This document shows, in pieces, positions 4,410 to 20,627 of a DNA stretch of 25,003 bases. The notes under the pieces were generated by a model. It saw nothing but the letters and a program-made list of their open reading frames with translations, made no database searches and had not been told where the DNA came from. The translations under genes were made by a program, and so were the position numbers. Each line of letters begins with the position of its first letter. Positions within the stretch are counted from its first letter, which is position 1. This DNA comes from a virus, in the IMG/VR virus record IMGVR_UViG_3300022745_000139, positions 1 to 25,003 of that record. The stretch is one strand, 5' to 3'.

Positions 4410-4482
4410 ATATGGCGAGGGGAGGACTCGAACCTCCTCTGTGTGCCACTCCCGCGTAGTCTAACAGGCGCCTGTTAGCCTT
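4410..4482 (-). ncRNA. tRNA-like element with intact T-arm, non-canonical 5' half
   Basis: The 73-base gap between two genes holds a perfect T-arm (5-bp stem 4421-4425/4433-4437, loop TTCGAGT), followed by a 7-base acceptor-like 3' strand CCTCGCC and a discriminator A. No matching 5' strand GGCGAGG exists upstream. Instead an 18-base perfect palindrome (4461-4478) occupies the place of the D-arm. I could not draw a normal anticodon arm. It may be a decayed tRNA, a tRNA mimic, or a processing signal in the tail mRNA. It ends 4 bases before the next start codon. Confidence 0.45.
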
Positions 4483-12413: not shown

Positions 12414-14048
12414 CTACGCCTCCGCTTTTGCCTTTCTCGCCATTGCTATCTTGAAGTATATGAGCGCATGCAGGAGGTCATCCTTTCCGGTTGATACCCA
12501 TTCGCGTTTCGGTATTCCCAGCCGGTCGGTTACGGTCCGTGCATAGGTTGTTTCCACGTGCTCTATGAGCATCTTGATTGCTTCGTCATGCGGTCCGTAA
12601 AAGAACCGTATACGTCCATGCTTCAGGTCCTCGAGCAGTAAGTCCATGATTCCGTCCCGGTCAGTCAGTACGCGTATCTCTTCCTCGAAGTCTTTCTGTT
12701 CGTCGGTGAATTCGTCATCGCTCCATCTCATTACCCGGACGCCCTTTGGATCGTCTTTGTACCAGTTCACCCACACTCTTCCCGGGAATTGCTGTGCCGC
12801 CTTGATGCTGTCCTGGGGTTTGTATCCTCCGTCTATCACGCAGTACCGCACGTCGTACGCTTCCATGAGCTCCGCCCAGCGTTCCCACTTGCTTTGTCCG
12901 CGCTTGCCCTGGCTCTCGATGTATTCGTCGCTGTCCCGGACTCGCGCTATGACGAAGATGCCCTCCTCGTTTCCGATGTGTAGGTACAGCTCTCGCTCCT
13001 GGACGTCTACGCCCATGCATGAGTTCAGTTCGATGTGGTCCTTCGATGTGAGGTTGCGTAGTATGAGGTCTTGTCCGATGCGTGAACCGCTCGAGACGTA
13101 CGGCAGTCCCAGCTTGTGGTTGTAGAAATACTCCATCGTCGCTTCGTTCTTTCCTGCCTTTGCGTCGTTGTAGTAGTCCACCAAGGAGGAGCATGGTATC
13201 CACGGGATTATCATCTGAGTTATGAAGTATCCGTGACGCTTCCTGTCCGGGTACTTTGCCTTCCACCTTCCTGTCCCTCTTGGGTTTACAGTGGTCCGTG
13301 GTCGTATCACGAGTGGGTCTAGGTCTGCTCCGCATCCACTGCATACGTATACCTTCCGTTCTAGGCTCACGTTCTGTGGCCACTCCATGTGCTGTTCCTT
13401 CTTGCATGCCTCACAGTTGAATCTCCAGTGTCTCTGGTCGCTGTCCTGCATTACTTTATTGATGCCGAAGTTTGGAACGGTTGGCGTGCTTATCCAGCGT
13501 CTCTGTCTTAGTGACGCTTCCCCCTCGAGTCGTGAGTCGTAGATACCAATCTGGCTCATGTCGCTTTTGTCGAGCTCGTCGTATGTGTTGCGGTCTGATG
13601 AGAGCATGAGCGAGTCGCTCTCTGACTTGGTTCCTTTGAAGTATAAAAATCCTTTGTTGAATTGTTTCTGCCCGATGGCGTCCACCTCTTTGTTCTTCAG
13701 CCCTGCCTTGATGGTGGGGTTCCGCTTTATCATTTCGTTGACCTTGCTTGGTACGAACTTCGTCACCGCGTCCGATGTGGGGAGTGTGTGGATCTGGTTG
13801 ATGCCGTGGTACTTCGCATCGTGTAGTTCCATGAGTATCGCCCACGTCGAAACGCCCGCTTGCGAGGGCTTCTGTACGGCTATCTCATCGGCTGTGTCTG
13901 CGTAGAGTGCTTCGAGAAAGAAGTGTGGTGCCCGTGGTCCTACCTTTATGCGACGCCCCTTCTCATTTACTATCTTCTTTTTCCGCACCCATACCAGCGT
14001 GTGTGCCCGGATGAAGCCTTCCATTTTGTCTTTGATTGAATCAATCAT
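12414..14048 (-). CDS. terL: Terminase large subunit (GpA-like)
   Basis: A 544-residue motor that pumps DNA into the head and cuts it. The ATPase part has a Walker A-like loop KPSQAGVST (residues 60-68) and a Walker B segment ending in YDELD (catalytic Glu near 158). A zinc-finger insert has Cys pairs at 212/215 (CEAC) and 236/239 (CSGC), typical of the GpA family. The C-terminal RNase H-like nuclease shows GVDVQERELYLHIG, then YCVIDGGYKPQD, then DDLLHALIYF, giving three acidic metal ligands. Length is usual for this family. Its start overlaps the small subunit gene by 8 bases. Met9 is a possible alternative start. Confidence 0.9.
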   Translation of the reverse strand: MIDSIKDKMEGFIRAHTLVWVRKKKIVNEKGRRIKVGPRAPHFFLEALYADTADEIAVQKPSQAGVSTWAILMELHDAKYHGINQIHTLPTSDAVTKFVPSKVNEMIKRNPTIKAGLKNKEVDAIGQKQFNKGFLYFKGTKSESDSLMLSSDRNTYDELDKSDMSQIGIYDSRLEGEASLRQRRWISTPTVPNFGINKVMQDSDQRHWRFNCEACKKEQHMEWPQNVSLERKVYVCSGCGADLDPLVIRPRTTVNPRGTGRWKAKYPDRKRHGYFITQMIIPWIPCSSLVDYYNDAKAGKNEATMEYFYNHKLGLPYVSSGSRIGQDLILRNLTSKDHIELNSCMGVDVQERELYLHIGNEEGIFVIARVRDSDEYIESQGKRGQSKWERWAELMEAYDVRYCVIDGGYKPQDSIKAAQQFPGRVWVNWYKDDPKGVRVMRWSDDEFTDEQKDFEEEIRVLTDRDGIMDLLLEDLKHGRIRFFYGPHDEAIKMLIEHVETTYARTVTDRLGIPKREWVSTGKDDLLHALIYFKIAMARKAKAEA

Positions 14049-14553
14049 CTTCTTCGTCTTCTAGCGCCGCGAGGTATGCCTTTGCTCCTGCTATCTCTGC
14101 TTTGTTCGGGAGTCTCTGCTCCTCTTCTGGTATCGCATCGTTCGACACCTCGACGCGTTGTTTTGCCCTTCCTAGTGTGCGGTCCAGGAACTCTTTCGCC
14201 GCCGGTATGCTCTTATTCTTCAGTGCTTCATGCCGGAGCATTTCCAATGTGGCCCGGAGTGTGGACTTCTTTGTTTGGGTGCGCTTCTGTGTCTTCAGGT
14301 TTATTTCTATAACGTCTACGTCCTCTACCAGTATCTGGTCAATCATGGCGCTCACTCCTATAGCGTCCAGTCTTTCGCCTTTTGTTATCCTTCCTGAACG
14401 GTCACGTCTCCCGCCATTGCCACCCTTTGGCACGTAGTTCCTACCACCTTTTGCAGGTTTTTGTTTTTTTTCAGTTTTCCGCTCTGCTCCGATACCCTCC
14501 TTGTTAGGAGTTTGCGGGGCCGTAGCAGTTGCTATCGGTTCTCCCTGTTTCAT
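14041..14553 (-). CDS. terS: Probable terminase small subunit
   Basis: A 170-residue basic protein immediately before terL. Residues 1-55 are Gly/Lys/Arg-rich and probably disordered, a likely DNA-binding arm. A helical part follows with AAKEFLDRTLGRAKQRVEV, a motif often found in small terminase-type phage proteins, then an acidic end. I chose the ATG at 14553 (MKQGEP). An upstream in-frame ATG at 14586 would place a -10 promoter inside the gene. With that promoter the mRNA would start at or next to the chosen ATG, so it is probably leaderless. Small terminases recognise the packaging site; the hairpin-rich gap just upstream is a natural candidate. Identity rests on helix pattern and position. 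Confidence 0.65.
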   Translation of the reverse strand: MKQGEPIATATAPQTPNKEGIGAERKTEKKQKPAKGGRNYVPKGGNGGRRDRSGRITKGERLDAIGVSAMIDQILVEDVDVIEINLKTQKRTQTKKSTLRATLEMLRHEALKNKSIPAAKEFLDRTLGRAKQRVEVSNDAIPEEEQRLPNKAEIAGAKAYLAALEDEEDD

Positions 14554-14561
14554 ACCCCGAA

Positions 14562-14570
14562 AGTATACCA
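14562..14570 (-). promoter_or_regulatory. Extended -10 promoter for terS, leaderless start
   Basis: The minus strand reads TGGTATACT, then eight bases, then ATG. A start point the usual 6-8 bases after the -10 element falls on or next to the A of that ATG. It lies directly downstream of a terminator, so transcription is handed over from the early to the packaging block here. The -35 region (TTGTGC, spacing 15) is weak. Confidence 0.6.
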
Positions 14571-14587
14571 TGCCTGAAGCGTGCACA

Positions 14588-14620
14588 ATAAAAGCCCCGT
14601 GTATTACTTACATGGGGCTT
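14588..14620 (-). terminator. Rho-independent terminator
   Basis: The minus strand gives AAGCCCCATG, a 9-base loop, CACGGGGCTT and then TTATT. The stem is 10 positions with one A-C mismatch, followed by a U-rich end. It closes the transcript coming from the anti-defence genes and the hairpin region, just before the terS promoter. The plus strand has no U-run after the stem. Confidence 0.7.
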
Positions 14621-14630
14621 GGTAGGTGGT

Positions 14631-14697
14631 GGAGCACCCGCTAGCGTATGAAGGATCAAGAGTCTCCTGTGTGTATCCCATCGCTATTGGGTGCTCC
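14631..14697 (-). ncRNA. Long hairpin RNA ending in ACCA
   Basis: The arms 14631-14639 and 14689-14697 pair over 9 bp. Inside, TAGCG/CGCTA pairs over 5 bp and AGGA/TCCT over 4 bp around a 9-base loop. On the minus strand the 3' end is GTGCTCC-A-CCA, like the acceptor end of a tRNA with encoded CCA, but there is no T-arm or D-arm. It may be a structured RNA, a tRNA mimic or part of a packaging signal. The plus strand can form the same hairpin. Confidence 0.45.
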
Positions 14698-14722
14698 GTA
14701 TGTAATTGTACTATGTTCTTTG

Positions 14723-14813
14723 TGGACCGTCGAGGAGTCGAACCTCATATCTTCCATGGTCCCGCGTCACTCTCAGCGCGGGGATGGATGCTTGCCCGTT
14801 AAGCTACCGGACC
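14723..14813 (-). tRNA. Non-canonical tRNA-like gene
   Basis: The best tRNA candidate of the window, 91 bases. It has an acceptor GGTCCGG/ACGGTCC with mismatches at pairs 3 and 7, TA at positions 8-9, and a good D-arm (GCTT, AACGGGC, AAGC). The anticodon stem is TCCAT/ATGGA, followed by a 5-base variable loop and a T-arm with TTCGACT. The oddity is the anticodon loop. Instead of 7 bases it has 26, including a 6-bp stem CCCGCG/CGCGGG whose 10-base loop contains CTGAGAG. That string resembles a GAG (Leu) anticodon loop. It could be a tRNA with an insert, a decayed tRNA or a mimic. The anticodon cannot be assigned. Confidence 0.45.
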
Positions 14814-14816
14814 AAA

Positions 14817-14931
14817 TAGCGGGAGTGTCTCCACCCTCCCGCTACCAGCCGTGACGTTTAGTCACAAAATCGTATCGCGATACGCCTGCCCGTAAAGGAC
14901 AGGATGCAATCCCGGTAATGTTCCGGGATTG
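14817..14931. repeat. Array of four hairpins and a 14-base palindrome
   Basis: In 115 bases there are: a 9-bp stem (14817-14825/14836-14844), a 5-bp stem GTGAC/GTCAC (14851-14865), a perfect palindrome CGTATCGCGATACG (14871-14884), a 7-bp stem (14885-14891/14897-14903) and a perfect 9-bp stem CAATCCCGG/CCGGGATTG (14907-14931). They lie nearly end to end. No ORF is plausible. Location next to terS suggests a packaging site (cos/pac), origin or structured RNA; the palindrome could bind a regulator. The first hairpin, on the minus strand, is followed by UUU. Confidence 0.55.
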
Positions 14932-14941
14932 TACCTGCTCT

Positions 14942-15283
14942 CTACGCCTGGTCTGTTCCCTCTATTCCTCTTTCCTTTCTGTCCTGTGTGCGTCGTCGTA
15001 GTGCGTCTTGCACTCCTTCCAAGTGTGCTATTGCCTGGTCGTTGTGTGATGACGGTACTGCCTGGTTCAGGTAGTATAGCCGATCCAAGAGTACGCTGAC
15101 TACTGTCTCTGTGGATACTCCATCCACGAGAGTAACGAGCTTCCCGTCCTTTGCCTCCTCTTCTGATCCTGCAAATGATGCGGGTCCCTTCTCGATGAAT
15201 TGGAGGGTTTGTCTCTCTCCTCCTTCAGTCACCATGCTGTACTCGTGTCCTGGATTGATTGCTTCGTATGGTTGAGCTTCCAT
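14942..15283 (-). CDS. Acb2/Tad1-type hairpin-domain protein (predicted anti-defence sponge)
   Basis: A 113-residue protein. The N-terminal 50 residues look like short beta strands (HEYSMVTEGGERQTLQFIEK). The C-terminal half has LLDRLYYLNQAVPSS, AIAHLEGVQDAL and RRRTQDRKERGIEGT. The pattern L-x-x-R-L-x-x-L-N, then A-I-x-x-L-E, then R-T-x-x-R-x-x-R-G-(V/I)-E-G-T is a helical-hairpin domain common in phages. I associate it with the Acb2/Tad1 group, which binds cyclic nucleotide signals of CBASS or Thoeris and so blunts host defence. The strand-then-hairpin layout is Tad1-like. It starts one base after the upstream gene, which also looks like a hairpin of this type. Family assignment is from memory of motifs; the ligand is unknown. 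Confidence 0.6.
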   Translation of the reverse strand: MEAQPYEAINPGHEYSMVTEGGERQTLQFIEKGPASFAGSEEEAKDGKLVTLVDGVSTETVVSVLLDRLYYLNQAVPSSHNDQAIAHLEGVQDALRRRTQDRKERGIEGTDQA

Positions 15284-15284
15284 A

Positions 15285-15560
15285 CTATTGCCAGGTCACC
15301 GCTTTGACTGCCCACATTTGAGCTGTCTGCGTATCAGTAATTGCGACCGACAGCATGCGGAGCTTCTCTCCTTTCTCCGAATCTGCAATTGTTTCGTCGA
15401 GCTTGATGACTTCCCGCAAGTCATTGAGCTTGTCGATTGCTGATGCGAATCGTGTCTTTATCTCCTGTACTTCCATGTTCCCTCCCGGGTTGAAAGTTAA
15501 ACCTACTGCTCTCTCACCGAATGTGAGATGTCTATTTGCGGCTAATCCTATTTCTGCCAT
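15285..15560 (-). CDS. Acb2-like hairpin protein (predicted anti-CBASS)
   Basis: A 91-residue protein. GERAVGLTFNPGGNMEVQEI is followed by helix 1 (ASAIDKLNDLREV) and helix 2, ending in LSVAITDTQTAQMWAVKAVT. The combination of an AVGLTFNPGG loop, an Ile-Asp-x-Leu-Asn helix and a terminal S-x-A-I-T-x-x-(Q/E)-T-A-Q-M-W-A-V-K-A helix is a common phage signature that I link to the Acb2/Tad1 hairpin family. Acb2 forms multimers that bind cyclic di- and trinucleotides. Size matches. It begins after an intergenic tRNA-like element, has no Shine-Dalgarno sequence, and is followed one base later by a second hairpin-type gene. Placement at the edge of the early block fits a defence-evasion gene. Function is predicted, not shown. 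Confidence 0.6.
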   Translation of the reverse strand: MAEIGLAANRHLTFGERAVGLTFNPGGNMEVQEIKTRFASAIDKLNDLREVIKLDETIADSEKGEKLRMLSVAITDTQTAQMWAVKAVTWQ

Positions 15561-15611
15561 TGTGCATTGTCTTATTGAATAAAATTGTGTCTGCTCCGAT
15601 ATGGGCAGAAC

Positions 15612-15691
15612 GTATCACTGAGTCAGGAAGGATTCGAACCTACGACCCCGGCTTCCCCCAGTCAGGGCTGACCACACATCGTCAGTGATAC
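15612..15691 (-). ncRNA. tRNA-like element with 10-bp terminal stem
   Basis: A perfect 10-bp stem GTATCACTGA/TCAGTGATAC (15682-15691/15612-15621) encloses a tRNA T-arm with loop TTCGAAT and one T-T mismatch in its 5-bp stem. Further inside is a GTCA/TGAC mini-hairpin. Five bases separate the T-arm from the terminal stem, and no D-arm or anticodon arm can be drawn. It fills the gap before the anti-defence pair and may be a tRNA mimic, a processing site or a decayed tRNA. Confidence 0.45.
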
Positions 15692-15703
15692 ATTCCACCC
15701 ACA

Positions 15704-15829
15704 TCATCCATCGCTCTTCCTCCACTTCCTTTTTGCTTTGCATGGATACCACCAGCAGTGGTATGTGTTTCTTTGCCGGTTTCCGTTTCTCACCCATGTA
15801 TGCAGTCCAAGTATGCAGAGGATGTTCAT
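15704..15829 (-). CDS. 41-residue Cys/His/Trp micro-protein
   Basis: A short gene whose ATG overlaps the TGA of the upstream gene as ATGA, the coupling used repeatedly in this window. It encodes 41 residues: an N-terminal MNILCILGLHTWV, then a basic middle, then HCWWYPC and a Lys/Arg-rich end. The C-x4-H...C-x4-C spacing and the LGLHxW start resemble small zinc-binding phage proteins, but a metal site is not proven. A competing frame at 15615-15797 runs into the tRNA-like element and is less likely. Function is unknown. Confidence 0.5.
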   Translation of the reverse strand: MNILCILGLHTWVRNGNRQRNTYHCWWYPCKAKRKWRKSDG

Positions 15830-16083
15830 GGTCCCTCCTTCTTAAATCCGGATCTCTTCAGCGCATCTATGACTATGGTGTCGAGCGTCTGTGCCCGGAA
15901 CGCTTTCTGTACCACTCCAGTCTCCCTCTCTATGAGCTCAAGTACTGCCCCCACCATCCCTGCCTCCATGCCGTCCCACCTCGGTGGTCTTTGCTTGTGT
16001 GCCATATAGAATTGGAAGTTTCCGAGCTCACTGTGGAGCGCTATCATCTTTCCTACTATCTCTTCCGGGGTTGGCTGTGCCAT
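15826..16083 (-). CDS. Hypothetical helical protein
   Basis: An 85-residue protein beginning one base after the stop of the dockerin peptide gene. Two helices (PEEIVGKMIALHSELGNFQF and MVGAVLELIERETGVVQKAF) are linked by a basic, Pro-containing turn. I do not recognise the family. It ends in an ATGA overlap with a 41-residue gene. No signal peptide is seen, so unlike its neighbour it is probably cytoplasmic. Confidence 0.5.
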   Translation of the reverse strand: MAQPTPEEIVGKMIALHSELGNFQFYMAHKQRPPRWDGMEAGMVGAVLELIERETGVVQKAFRAQTLDTIVIDALKRSGFKKEGP

Positions 16084-16084
16084 G

Positions 16085-16273
16085 TTACTTGCTGGGATTA
16101 ATCTCCGAAGCGAGAATTGAAAGGTCGATGATGTCTACCTTCCCGTCGTTGTTCAGGTCTCTGCTTACTGCGGGTACTACGATCGTGTTTGAATGTGTCG
16201 CAGTGTATGCCTGGGCTACTGCCATCGTTACGAATGATAATACTACGAGGCTTTGTACGATTGTTTCTTTCAT
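16085..16273 (-). CDS. Secreted single-repeat dockerin-like peptide
   Basis: A 62-residue protein. Residues 1-22 are a signal peptide: charged start, hydrophobic core VQSLVVLSFVTMAVA, likely cleavage after Ala-Val-Ala or Ala-Gln-Ala. After a linker of about 15 residues comes one dockerin/EF-hand-like calcium loop, DLNNDGKVDIID (39-50), with ligands Asp39, Asn41, Asp43 and Asp50, and the helix LSILASEI. Classic dockerins have two such repeats and bind cohesins; this has one, so pairing or a partner may be needed. Its ATG overlaps the upstream TGA. A secreted calcium-binding peptide is unusual in a phage early block. It could act at the host surface, for example in superinfection exclusion or adhesion, but no function is shown. 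Confidence 0.7.
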   Translation of the reverse strand: MKETIVQSLVVLSFVTMAVAQAYTATHSNTIVVPAVSRDLNNDGKVDIIDLSILASEINPSK

Positions 16274-16674
16274 ATGCCTTCGATGAATTTAGAACCGATC
16301 CAGCGCCAGAGTCTTTCCGGCATCCATGTCGGTCGAGGTTTGATGTGCTCCTCGAAGCTCTTATAAAGTTCTTCTGTTTTCTCTTGTGCAAATTTCCGCA
16401 TCTCTTTCCCGTAGAGTTGCGCCACCTTCCTTTGTAACTTCTTCCCGCTTTTGACCTTGCCGAAGTTGTCGACGATGAGCTTTATCTCCCTCGCCATTAC
16501 TCCGGTGCTCACGTACTCTGCGTTCCTGCAGACCAGGCGTGCTTCCGGGGAGTCGGGTTTCGCTCCGCATTGTTCGCACGTTCTGTCTGCAGGCAGAGTA
16601 TCCAGAGTGCCATGCCGGTGATGTCCGTTCTGGATCATCTGCCCTACTATTGAATCTGGCATTGCGTGTATCAT
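16270..16674 (-). CDS. Hypothetical protein with possible zinc site
   Basis: A 134-residue protein. Near residue 33 there is TCEQCGAK followed by an isolated Cys (LVCRN), a possible incomplete zinc ribbon. The rest is basic and helical (KSGKKLQRKVAQLYGKEMRK), ending in an amphipathic aromatic segment (TWMPERLWRWIGSKFIEGI) that could touch a membrane. It starts in an ATGA overlap with the upstream zinc-ribbon gene and ends in another ATGA overlap with the dockerin peptide gene, so all three are coupled. The family is not recognised. Confidence 0.5.
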   Translation of the reverse strand: MIHAMPDSIVGQMIQNGHHRHGTLDTLPADRTCEQCGAKPDSPEARLVCRNAEYVSTGVMAREIKLIVDNFGKVKSGKKLQRKVAQLYGKEMRKFAQEKTEELYKSFEEHIKPRPTWMPERLWRWIGSKFIEGI

Positions 16675-16957: not shown

Positions 16958-17743
16958 CTATGCGTCCTTCTTCACGGCAGTGGATAACCTGGTCGCTACC
17001 TTCCCAGTGAGCGTTTCCCACCGCTCTATGATGGTTGTGCAGTATCCTGGGTCAAGTTCTATCATCGCGCATTTCCTGCCCATCTGTTCGCATGCGATGA
17101 GGGTGCTTCCGCTTCCTCCGAATGGATCGTATATCCATTCTCCTGGTCGCGTGTTGTTCGGTATTATTTTCCGGAGCAGTCCTACCGGTTTCATGGTTGG
17201 GTGAAGCTTTGAGCTTGATGGCTTCGGGTGGAAGATGACCGTCTTGCTCTTCGGCCGGTTCATCTTGTGGCGTCCGTGCCAGCAGTATGCCGCGACCTCA
17301 TGCATTGGTAGATAGTCCTTCCTGCCCACCACGACGCTGTTCTTCACCCATATGAGCATCTGGCTGTAATAGAATCCGGCCGCGTCTATACCATTTCGGA
17401 GTGCTCGGAACATCAGGTCGCTGTTGAATATGTAGCATGCGTTATAACTCTCCAGTCGTCCCTTCACTGCATCCATCCATGCCTTGGTGAATAGTGCGTA
17501 CTCTTCTTCTGTCTGCAAGTGGTCGTTCATGATCTCTTTCACGTTCTCCTTCCCCAGCTTCATGTGGTCTCGCTTCCCCTCGACGTATGCCACTCCGTAT
17601 GGAGGGTCCGTCAGTATCATGCGAATCTTATCCGCATGTGACAGTAAAGAGTGGACGAATGTTTCATCCAAGGACGAACCACATCCCAGTATGTGGTGTT
17701 CTCCCAGCTCCCATATCTCTCCTGGTTTTATTTCCTTTTTCAT
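16958..17743 (-). CDS. DNA amino-methyltransferase (DPPY type)
   Basis: A 261-residue methyltransferase that adds a methyl group to adenine N6 or cytosine N4. Motif IV is TDPPYG (DPPY 46-49) and motif I is DPFGGSGST (206-214). DPPY comes first, the beta-class order, with the target-recognition part between them. The N-terminus EIKPGEIWELGEHHILGCG is the linker seen in ParB-methyltransferase fusions, but no ParB domain is present here. AdoMet binding is further supported by the HPTMKPVGLL segment before motif I. It overlaps the C5 methyltransferase gene as ATGA. Most likely it protects phage DNA from host restriction; the target sequence cannot be read from the protein. No partner nuclease is visible. 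Confidence 0.85.
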   Translation of the reverse strand: MKKEIKPGEIWELGEHHILGCGSSLDETFVHSLLSHADKIRMILTDPPYGVAYVEGKRDHMKLGKENVKEIMNDHLQTEEEYALFTKAWMDAVKGRLESYNACYIFNSDLMFRALRNGIDAAGFYYSQMLIWVKNSVVVGRKDYLPMHEVAAYCWHGRHKMNRPKSKTVIFHPKPSSSKLHPTMKPVGLLRKIIPNNTRPGEWIYDPFGGSGSTLIACEQMGRKCAMIELDPGYCTTIIERWETLTGKVATRLSTAVKKDA

Positions 17744-18762
17744 TTTGGTATGTGTTTAAGGATGTGCGCTACCACGTCCACGTTGAATGCGTTCCCTAGT
17801 GTCTTGTATCTCTGGTTGTCGCTTCCCATTTCCGTGTACGAATCCGGGAGTGACTGCAGTCGTTCGCATTCTATTGGTGTGAGTCTCCGCACCCTATTGC
17901 CTGTAAATACATTAATGCTTGGCTTGGTCATAAGGTTCTTCACTTTGTTTCCCACCCGCCCTCTTCGGGTTCTTGATCCTGGGAAGCTCAGGTCTATTGC
18001 ATCGCCGTCGTATGCTGTCGCGTACCCCTTCTTTGTCGCTTCCGGTATGATGAGGTATAGACCTGTCTTCGCACCAGTACCCCCCCCTCCGGCCTGCAGA
18101 GCTACGCTCTTGCCGTCAGTTGAATAGATGCGTTGTGACTGTGGCAGGCTTCTTCCCTGCCGCATCTTTTCCAGGATGCTCTGAAGCGTTTCTTCGCTTA
18201 TGTAGTATTTCTCATCCACCTCTGGTTCTAGTATATCCTTGACGTAAATCTCCCGGTCAGTCGGCTGTGTCACTCCAGGTATGTTGGTCCAGAATAGTCG
18301 CTTGCGTCTCTGTGCAGATACCAATCCCGCATCGATCATGATGGGCTCCACACCCAGCTCTCTTGATATAATGTCCTTTGCTTCTTTTGGCATGCTTGCC
18401 ACATTCTCGAGCACGAACCATGTGGGTCGCTCTCTCCGGAGCGTCTCGAGGTAGGTCCAGAATAGTCCGGAGCGTTCTCCATCAAGTCCTTGCCTGTTGC
18501 GCTTTGCAATGGATAGGTCCTGGCATGGTGACCCACCAATGAGTAGGTCTAATGTTCCTCCGAATGAGAAGCGGTCCTTGACTGTCTGAACGTCGCCTAT
18601 TTGAATGGTGTCCGGGAAGTTCCTCTGTGCCACCTGTATTGCATACTCGTCTATCTCACTGGCAAGGTATGCCCCGATGGGAATGCCTGCCTTGTTCAGC
18701 GCCATACGTGCACAGCTTATTCCGTCGAAGTATGAGAGGACTTTGTATGGTGTGGTTATCAT
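17740..18762 (-). CDS. C5-cytosine DNA methyltransferase
   Basis: A 340-residue enzyme that makes 5-methylcytosine. The AdoMet motif is LSYFDGISCARMAL (phage-style FDGIS in place of FAGxGG). The catalytic loop is GGSPCQDLS with Cys80. Motif VI is ENV (119-121), motif VIII is QRRKR, and the C-terminus has LTPIECERLQSLP and the final GNAFNVDVV motif. All key residues are present, so it should be active. The variable recognition region lies before the C-terminal motifs. It overlaps its neighbours on both sides as ATGA. Like the adjacent amino-methyltransferase, it probably shields phage DNA. Specificity is unknown. Confidence 0.9.
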   Translation of the reverse strand: MITTPYKVLSYFDGISCARMALNKAGIPIGAYLASEIDEYAIQVAQRNFPDTIQIGDVQTVKDRFSFGGTLDLLIGGSPCQDLSIAKRNRQGLDGERSGLFWTYLETLRRERPTWFVLENVASMPKEAKDIISRELGVEPIMIDAGLVSAQRRKRLFWTNIPGVTQPTDREIYVKDILEPEVDEKYYISEETLQSILEKMRQGRSLPQSQRIYSTDGKSVALQAGGGGTGAKTGLYLIIPEATKKGYATAYDGDAIDLSFPGSRTRRGRVGNKVKNLMTKPSINVFTGNRVRRLTPIECERLQSLPDSYTEMGSDNQRYKTLGNAFNVDVVAHILKHIPK

Positions 18763-19382
18763 GATGTTACTTTTTTGTATATCTCATGTGTTGCTTCGCA
18801 GTCGCCGAGCGCCCGGTGTGCGCTGTTTTGTGTTATGCCCATCTCCTGACAGCATAGGGTTACGTTGTACTTCACTCCCTTGACCACCATATTCATGATG
18901 CGCGTTCCCCAATCGTAGAACGTTTCGTTCCAGCGCCGTGGCATGTTCAGCTTTCCTGCCTTGACGAATACTGCACTATCGAGTGCTCTCTTATTCAGGC
19001 TGTCAAGGAACAACTTGTGGTCTCCTACTGTATAACCCAGGGTCTTCGCCACGTGGTATGCAAGCCATTCGATGTCGAATCGAAGGCCGTTATGGGTAAG
19101 GTGCGGGATGGTCTGATCTGATAGCAAAATAGCCAGGAACTCTTCCAGGCATGTCTTGGGGTCCTTGCCCTCTGTATCTATCAGCTCCTTGGTAATGCCG
19201 GTCAGCTCCGTTATTAATTCCGGGATCTCAATACCATGATTCAAGAGCCAGCTCTTTCGTTCTTTTATTTCTCCCTTCTCTACGAGGAGACATCCTATCT
19301 CGAGTATCTTGCACTCTTCTTTTTGGAGACCTGATGTTTCCAAGTCCCACACGATGTATGTACTTGGGTATTGAATGTTCAT
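18759..19382 (-). CDS. DnaQ-like 3'-5' exonuclease
   Basis: A 207-residue DEDD-family exonuclease. Exo I is VWDLETSG (Asp13, Glu15), Exo II is HNGLRFDIEWL and Exo III is HRALGDCEATHEI, with His and Asp placed as in the DEDDh type. It therefore should cleave nucleotides from 3' ends of DNA or RNA using two metal ions. It resembles proofreading epsilon subunits or oligoribonuclease/RNase T-type enzymes; without a polymerase in the window the substrate stays open. It is coupled by ATGA overlaps to methyltransferase genes on both sides, so the cluster probably acts together in DNA metabolism. Confidence 0.85.
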   Translation of the reverse strand: MNIQYPSTYIVWDLETSGLQKEECKILEIGCLLVEKGEIKERKSWLLNHGIEIPELITELTGITKELIDTEGKDPKTCLEEFLAILLSDQTIPHLTHNGLRFDIEWLAYHVAKTLGYTVGDHKLFLDSLNKRALDSAVFVKAGKLNMPRRWNETFYDWGTRIMNMVVKGVKYNVTLCCQEMGITQNSAHRALGDCEATHEIYKKVTS

Positions 19383-20014
19383 ATAATTTTCTTAGCTTTT
19401 TGATTTGTAAATTCACCCCATCGCCGGATGATGACGTCGACCATTATCGGGTCCTGCTCCATCATGAAGCACTTCCGCTTCAGCTGTTCGCAGGCGATCA
19501 TGGTAGAGCCCGCTCCGCCGAAGAGGTCGAGGACGTTATGTCCGGGTGCTGTGCATCTCTTGAGTGGTTTCTCTATGAGTGTCACCGGCTTTTGGAATGC
19601 ATAGTCGTAGGCATCCTTGCGGTCACTCTTGTCTATCCAGAGGTTTAAGTATTCCCATACGTCTTCCTGGATCTGATTGCCAGAGTCTATCTCCTTGTTG
19701 AGTACCTGGCTCAGGTTCTTTATGCCGGTGTTGATAAATGGTTTCCCGCGGGTCCCATAGACCACCGCTTCGTATGCCTTGTTGAATGCGTTCTTCGGAG
19801 TTACCTGCATGTCGCTCTTTATCCAAAGTAGCACGCGTTCTGTTTTCATCTTGTGCTCTTTAAAGAGTGTCTGCAGTAACCAGATGTCTCGTTCCTGTGT
19901 CCAGTAGAATGCGTGGCAGTTCGGCTTGGCGTTTGCCATTGCGTTCTCTATGGTGCTGTTCAGGAAGCTTGCGAATGTGCCCTCCTCTTTCTTTTCCTTC
20001 TTCACCTTCAGCAC
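19379..20014 (-). CDS. Methyltransferase C-terminal part (frameshifted from ParB half)
   Basis: A 211-residue frame with a GTG start. It carries the C-terminal half of a DNA amino-methyltransferase: the target-recognition part, then HNVLDLFGGAGSTMIACEQL (AdoMet motif I) and a basic end. The DPP motif IV lies just upstream but in another reading frame. Removing one C from a run of nine at 20038-20046 joins it to the ParB-domain frame and gives CDPPLKLLAEGHV leading into this protein. So this is probably the second half of one gene. The stop overlaps the exonuclease start as ATGA. Separate translation from the internal GTG is possible but would lack motif IV. Confidence 0.7.
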   Translation of the reverse strand: MLKVKKEKKEEGTFASFLNSTIENAMANAKPNCHAFYWTQERDIWLLQTLFKEHKMKTERVLLWIKSDMQVTPKNAFNKAYEAVVYGTRGKPFINTGIKNLSQVLNKEIDSGNQIQEDVWEYLNLWIDKSDRKDAYDYAFQKPVTLIEKPLKRCTAPGHNVLDLFGGAGSTMIACEQLKRKCFMMEQDPIMVDVIIRRWGEFTNQKAKKII

Positions 20015-20627
20015 GTGTCCTTCGGCTAGGAGTTTGAGGGGGGGGGTCGCAGAAGATCATGTCAGCGCTTTCGCCTCCCATGAGCGTCTTCACGTGTGCT
20101 GGGTTCGATGCATCTCCGCACATGAGCATATGCTGGCCAAGCAAGTATACATCCCCGGTGCGTGCTTTTGGATTTTTAATTTCCCGGGCTCCGCCTCCTG
20201 GCACGTGGTCGTCATCTATCACGTCGACGTCGTCAAAGAATACCTGAAGGTCTTCGTCTCCGAATCCTACATCCAGGAGAAGGTTCAGTCCCATGTCGCG
20301 GAGCTTCTCCTGGTCCCAGCTTCCCACGTTCTTGTTGAGGCGCAGGTTGAGGCGCTTCTCTTCAGTTATTGTAAGCTCACGAGATGGCACCATAACATCC
20401 ACGTCCTTGATGCCACGCTTCAGGTATAGCCTGGTGCGTTGGTGTCCGCCTATAAGAACGTTCTCCCGCTTCCCGATGTTCACCACCACCGGTATGACGG
20501 CACCAAATTCCCCGATGCTTTCATCGAGGTCGCGCTCTTCCTGCTCTGTCATCTTGCGCGGGTTGTAGTCGGCCTCCTTGAGGTCAGCTACTTTTCTTTT
20601 CTCAATTGTCCAGGATATATTTTTCAT
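19860..20627 (-). CDS. ParB-domain DNA methyltransferase, N-terminal part (frameshifted)
   Basis: A 255-residue frame. Residues 10-110 are a ParB/Srx-type domain (DYNPRKMTEQEERDLDESI, FGAVIPVVVN, NVLIGGHQRTRLYLKRG). A linker TGDVYLLGQHMLMCGDASNP leads to motif IV, ADMIFCDPP (Asp194-Pro-Pro). The frame then runs through nine C bases into a Pro/Arg-rich tail without similarity to the family, a sign of a shifted frame. The correct continuation is in the next frame downstream. Either the C9 run is a sequencing error, or the enzyme is switched on and off by slippage. Intact, it would be about 415 residues, normal for phage ParB-methyltransferases. It is coupled to the upstream gene by ATGA. Confidence 0.75.
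   Translation of the reverse strand: MKNISWTIEKRKVADLKEADYNPRKMTEQEERDLDESIGEFGAVIPVVVNIGKRENVLIGGHQRTRLYLKRGIKDVDVMVPSRELTITEEKRLNLRLNKNVGSWDQEKLRDMGLNLLLDVGFGDEDLQVFFDDVDVIDDDHVPGGGAREIKNPKARTGDVYLLGQHMLMCGDASNPAHVKTLMGGESADMIFCDPPPQTPSRRTRAEGEEGKERGGHIRKLPEQHHRERNGKRQAELPRILLDTGTRHLVTADTL
20038..20046 (-). repeat. C9 homopolymer splitting the ParB-methyltransferase
   Basis: Nine consecutive C on the minus strand sit exactly at the DPP motif. Eight or eleven would restore one frame across the whole enzyme. Homopolymers of this kind are both frequent sequencing-error sites and known slippage sites for phase-variable methyltransferases. DPPL, the restored motif, is less usual than DPPY or DPPF. 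Confidence 0.7.

Follow-up and report, generated by a model that had tools for sequence, protein, structure and literature searches.

Two adjacent hairpin genes in a phage window

Can a single phage carry two different sponges for nucleotide signals side by side? As published, members of the Tad1 and Acb2 families sequester gcADPR as well as cyclic di- and trinucleotides (PMC12043709, PMC12657218). The question is raised by two small minus-strand genes in the 25,003-nt virus record IMGVR_UViG_3300022745_000139, the whole of which was analysed here as the window. A sequence-only reading had described the two genes as adjacent, one base apart, and had placed both in the Acb2/Tad1 hairpin group. 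We found both open reading frames on the minus strand, with position 15284 as the only spacer:

15285..15560, minus strand: gene A, ORF of 91 aa containing AITDTQTAQMWAVKA; Acb2/Tad1-hairpin protein
15284, minus strand: intergenic base, the single nucleotide between the gene A stop (TAG) and the gene B start (ATG) in TAGTATG
14942..15283, minus strand: gene B, ORF of 113 aa containing LDRLYYLN and RRRTQDRKERGIEGT; Tad1-family protein
14890..14945, minus strand: RNA hairpin directly 3' of gene B (-29.6 kcal/mol, z -7.9)

Gene A comes first in the sense of transcription, and a single base separates its TAG stop from the start codon of gene B. This one-base spacing, established here, is consistent with translational coupling, which we infer from the arrangement of the two frames. 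The strong RNA hairpin, which none of 200 shuffles equalled in folding, may mark where the transcript ends or serve the cassette as an RNA element.

The assignment of both genes to the hairpin group also held, for gene A through Pfam PF24729 (Acb2_Tad1_hairpin) above its cut-off and for gene B through the Tad1 profile and the fold. We reject an artefact or a chance motif, given the matches in Pfam and PHROG, the PDB profile match and the fold. The hairpins of genes A and B, compared by hhalign (probability 90%, E 1.5e-6), are homologous to each other as judged from this alignment.

Gene A belongs to a separate hairpin family

Gene A matched PF24729 with 39.8 bits (5.2e-10), the curated Pfam cut-off being 27 bits, and all 54 aligned members of its family matched as well. 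The family is described by the pattern 'FGEKAVGLTFNP...QTAQMWAVKAxTW' with the invariant segment G--A-G--FNP; its strictly conserved residues are G15, F23-N24-P25, K35, W83, K86 and T89, and gene A keeps 30 of the 31 strongly conserved columns. Gene A also matches the final 72 positions of phrog_717, a PHROG family of 289 aa, which suggests that larger proteins carry the hairpin C-terminally.

The AlphaFold model of gene A (pLDDT 92.4) has a short helix at 14-18 and long antiparallel helices at 29-54 and 60-89, an arrangement that Acb2 shares (PMC12043709). Among 350,542 PDB chains searched by Foldseek with this model, T4 Vs.4/Acb2 with cGAMP (7uq2) took ranks 1 and 2, with probabilities of 0.97 and 0.93 and an E value of 0.71, which is not significant, a value that small helical hairpins can give. 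The family profile, searched against PDB sequences, gave no Acb2 chain and no significant match; against T4 Acb2 itself, in a one-sequence test, it scored 16 bits over 44 residues. The ligand-stacking residues used for comparison (T4 Y8 and F82) were taken from PMC12657218 only, according to which F82 stacks on the ligand and its replacement by Cys diminished binding. T4 F82 aligns with Thr89 of gene A, Trp90 lying one residue further, and the N-terminal segment of gene A has no reliable alignment to the Y8 region of T4 Acb2.

Compared with Acb2 (T4 Vs.4, 7uq2; PaMx33-type anti-CBASS 2), gene A thus shares PF24729, the short N-terminal helix with two long antiparallel helices and the MWA--A ending, whereas it forms a separate family marked by G--A-G--FNP and has Thr at the position of T4 F82. 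The earlier placement of gene A in the Acb2/Tad1 group stands, and gene A has the hairpin and the order of helices of Acb2. Because gene A has its own family, no significant sequence match to Acb2 and Thr89 in place of F82, it should not be named Acb2. By its sequence, gene A is an Acb2/Tad1 hairpin-family protein and apparently not an Acb2 orthologue; its product probably works like Acb2, to judge from family and predicted fold.

The pair occupies a variable accessory site

The genes around the pair delimit its locus as follows:

14587..15825: variable accessory locus with genes A and B, flanked by the gene at 15826-16083 and the putative small terminase
15826-16083: conserved small gene, one flank of the locus, with orthologues in related phages
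14041-14586: putative small terminase, the other flank, named by position only

The putative small terminase had no Pfam or PHROG match, and no near DNA relative of the region was found in the phage collection. Five related phages (L164-L168, of which L164 and L165 may be near-copies) have terminases 55-78% identical to that of the window and keep at least one of the flanking genes (15826-16083, 16270-16674 or the putative small terminase) beside the large terminase. None of the five carries a homologue of gene A or gene B at the syntenic site, and other small ORFs occupy the space of the pair in the three whose sites were inspected (L165, L166 and L167). Since the relatives keep the flanks without either gene, genes A and B are accessory cargo and the site that they occupy is variable; this position is established here. 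Such a site would be the usual setting for anti-defence genes. Relatives of gene A adjoin polymerase, helicase, terminase, integrase and endolysin genes, and such varied neighbours are expected of cargo.

These contexts bear on whether gene A encodes a sponge at all. Gene B could be the sole sponge, and gene A a hairpin protein of the same fold that serves a different purpose such as packaging or assembly. Most of the strictly conserved residues of the gene A family listed above are absent from T4 Acb2, and some relatives do adjoin terminase genes, as such a role would allow. However, the relatives adjoin many unrelated modules, and gene A is missing from the syntenic site of close phage relatives, which speaks against a structural role of an essential kind. 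A fixed packaging role finds no support, on the same two grounds, and we regard a job other than that of a sponge as unlikely, though it is the likeliest of the alternatives. A sponge-type function for gene A remains our preferred reading.

Gene B is a Tad1-family protein

Gene B matched phrog_2428 (E 6e-16). As a single sequence it matched Tad1 structures weakly (E 0.03), and a family profile built from gene B and 12 relatives matched Tad1 crystal structures with E values of 7e-20 (CmTad1) to 4e-16 (CbTad1). PF24729 matches 32 of 40 family members and gives no match to gene B itself. In the AlphaFold model (pLDDT 92.5), an N-terminal beta region precedes a C-terminal helical hairpin (58-75, 79-104); the strand region that had been noticed at the N-terminus of the second gene appears as five strands predicted with high confidence (6-10, 14-18, 24-29, 31-34 and 48-53). 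The top 14 Foldseek matches of this model in the PDB were all CbTad1 or CmTad1, with a probability of 1.00 and a best E value of 8.8e-5. The proposed match to Tad1 structures was therefore borne out by both profile and model, and gene B is, on sequence profile and predicted fold, a Tad1-family protein.

Gene B resembles the known Tad1 proteins (CbTad1, 7uav/8smd/8kbe; CmTad1, 8kbb; SBSphiJ7 Tad1) in its predicted fold of N-terminal strands and C-terminal hairpin and in the RT-DR--RG-EGT ending. It differs from them in being shorter than the CbTad1, CmTad1 and SBSphiJ7 proteins compared, in its apparent coupling to a second sponge-type gene, and in two stretches that are conserved among its IMG/VR relatives, where it has GVSTET for GTTNEE and SHN for REN. 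Since these two stretches are changed, the ligand range of gene B may differ from that of tested Tad1 proteins. Residues F82 and N92 of CbTad1, which we take to be ligand residues, carry no weight in this comparison.

The same substitutions could be read as signs of a degenerate Tad1 that no longer binds ligand and whose task gene A has taken over. Against this, the ORF is intact, the fold is predicted with confidence by AlphaFold, and most family-conserved residues are kept, including the core R68, N81, R98, R102, R105, E108 and G109. Moreover, the tested CbTad1 likewise deviates at the first stretch (HGVIDSD), and ABMM1 and R22Y are phages whose relatives of gene B have its S-x-x-N form, as has the one in OBP in part, so the changes are better read as divergence than as decay. 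We consider loss of ligand binding very improbable and treat gene B as a probably working member of the Tad1 family.

The combination is new, its parts are familiar

The gene A family is common in environmental phages, with at least 430 loci in IMG/VR (at least 432 in one scan, of which 80 were retained), and the Tad1 subgroup of gene B has 48 loci in an IMG/VR scan. No locus besides the window had both genes within the fetched flanks. Searched as whole records, 48 others with gene A yielded no Tad1-type gene, the two weak hits among them overlapping the gene A homologues, and 29 Tad1 records yielded no second hairpin gene, so that the two kinds were combined in none of the 77 other sampled records. 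The absence of a partner gene is weak evidence here since fragments are frequent among the records, and a divergent partner may have escaped the searches since PF24729 is blind to gene B. A motif scan for gene A in bacterial genomes gave nine loci, and in the available sequence around them no Tad1 gene adjoins. The idea that the pairing is a common arrangement was rejected on the sampled records and fetched flanks.

A parallel case is IMGVR_UViG_3300032893_000127 (loci L162 and L163), which also has a relative of gene A and a second, different hairpin protein of 67 aa. Unlike gene B, this second protein is a short hairpin and not Tad1, and the two genes lie at opposite contig ends, where they are neighbours only if the genome is circular. 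The hairpin genes are at 2478-2681 of L162 and 33-293 of L163, both on the minus strand; each is near its own groES copy, and one is also near a groEL-like gene.

The pairing of gene A with gene B is a new combination of known kinds and not a new kind of system. From the sequences compared, gene B is clearly of the Tad1 sponge type and gene A a member of a large, related and separate family, which makes the pair an unusual combination of familiar parts. In the openly available literature we found no tested member of the gene A family and no ligand or phenotype for it. Given its link to the Acb2/Tad1 hairpin, the family is a promising place to look for a new sponge specificity, and its natural pairing with Tad1 lends itself to testing whether related sponges are stacked by phages to counter more host signals.

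A probable two-sponge cassette with different ligand ranges

We think it likely that the two genes make up a small operon by which a tailed phage counters host defence, with two sponges carried as accessory cargo beside the packaging genes. The two would most likely have different ligand ranges, directed against Thoeris and CBASS-type signals. The product of gene B would form hexamers as a Tad1-type sponge and bind cyclic ADP-ribose signals (Thoeris) as well as cyclic di- and trinucleotides (CBASS) without degrading them, and gene A would provide a second, smaller Acb2-like hairpin sponge that binds a cyclic oligonucleotide or another nucleotide signal. Produced together, they would keep the free alarm signal too low to trigger the host effectors, and together they could cover more signals than either alone; such a wider signal range is plausible. 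We infer the oligomerisation, ligands and anti-defence activity of both products; their families and predicted folds are established here.

It is worth mentioning that T4, with acb1 and acb2, likewise directs several proteins, at least two, against nucleotide signals (PMC11722364). T4 combines a nuclease with a sponge, whereas the window has two sponge-type genes, closely spaced and with homologous hairpins.

The two products might instead co-assemble through their related hairpins into one mixed hexamer with combined or new pockets, an idea that the homology of the hairpins, the one-base spacing of the adjacent genes and the role of the long helices in building interfaces and pockets of Acb2 and Tad1 hexamers (PMC12043709) would favour, but the hairpins are only 18% identical across 38 aligned columns and both families normally occur singly, so each can work without the other, and we hold co-assembly to be a distant prospect. 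Just as slight is the chance that combined pockets of such a mixed sponge bind a signal to which Tad1 and Acb2, each on its own, are blind. Two separate sponges remain the reading that we prefer.

tRNA-like elements and other genes in the window

Three tRNA-like elements with the T-arm motif GGTTCGANTCC were found on the coding strand, where 0.07 were expected; the first two flank the sponge pair:

14722-14815, minus strand: tRNA-like element
15610-15690, minus strand: tRNA-like element
4410-4475, minus strand: tRNA-like element

Neither ARAGORN nor Rfam called any of the three elements a tRNA, nor did they give a tRNA gene around the pair at normal thresholds, and ARAGORN at 80% thresholds marked 16 places, mostly noise. 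L164 and L165 each have one tRNA-like element at the syntenic site, and L166 has a called tRNA-Ala. The elements are possibly degenerate tRNAs or processing elements.

Further along the window, a ParB-like frame (19860-20627, minus strand) and a DNA methyltransferase frame (19379-20014, minus strand) overlap in different frames, with a DPP- motif at the end of the first. This overlap suggests that a fused gene has undergone a frameshift, or has a programmed one, and L167 likewise has two consecutive frames at this site. The methyltransferases of the window span 16958-20014 on the minus strand and comprise an N6/N4 type (16958-17743), a C5 type (17740-18762) and the one at 19379-20014; an exonuclease lies between them.
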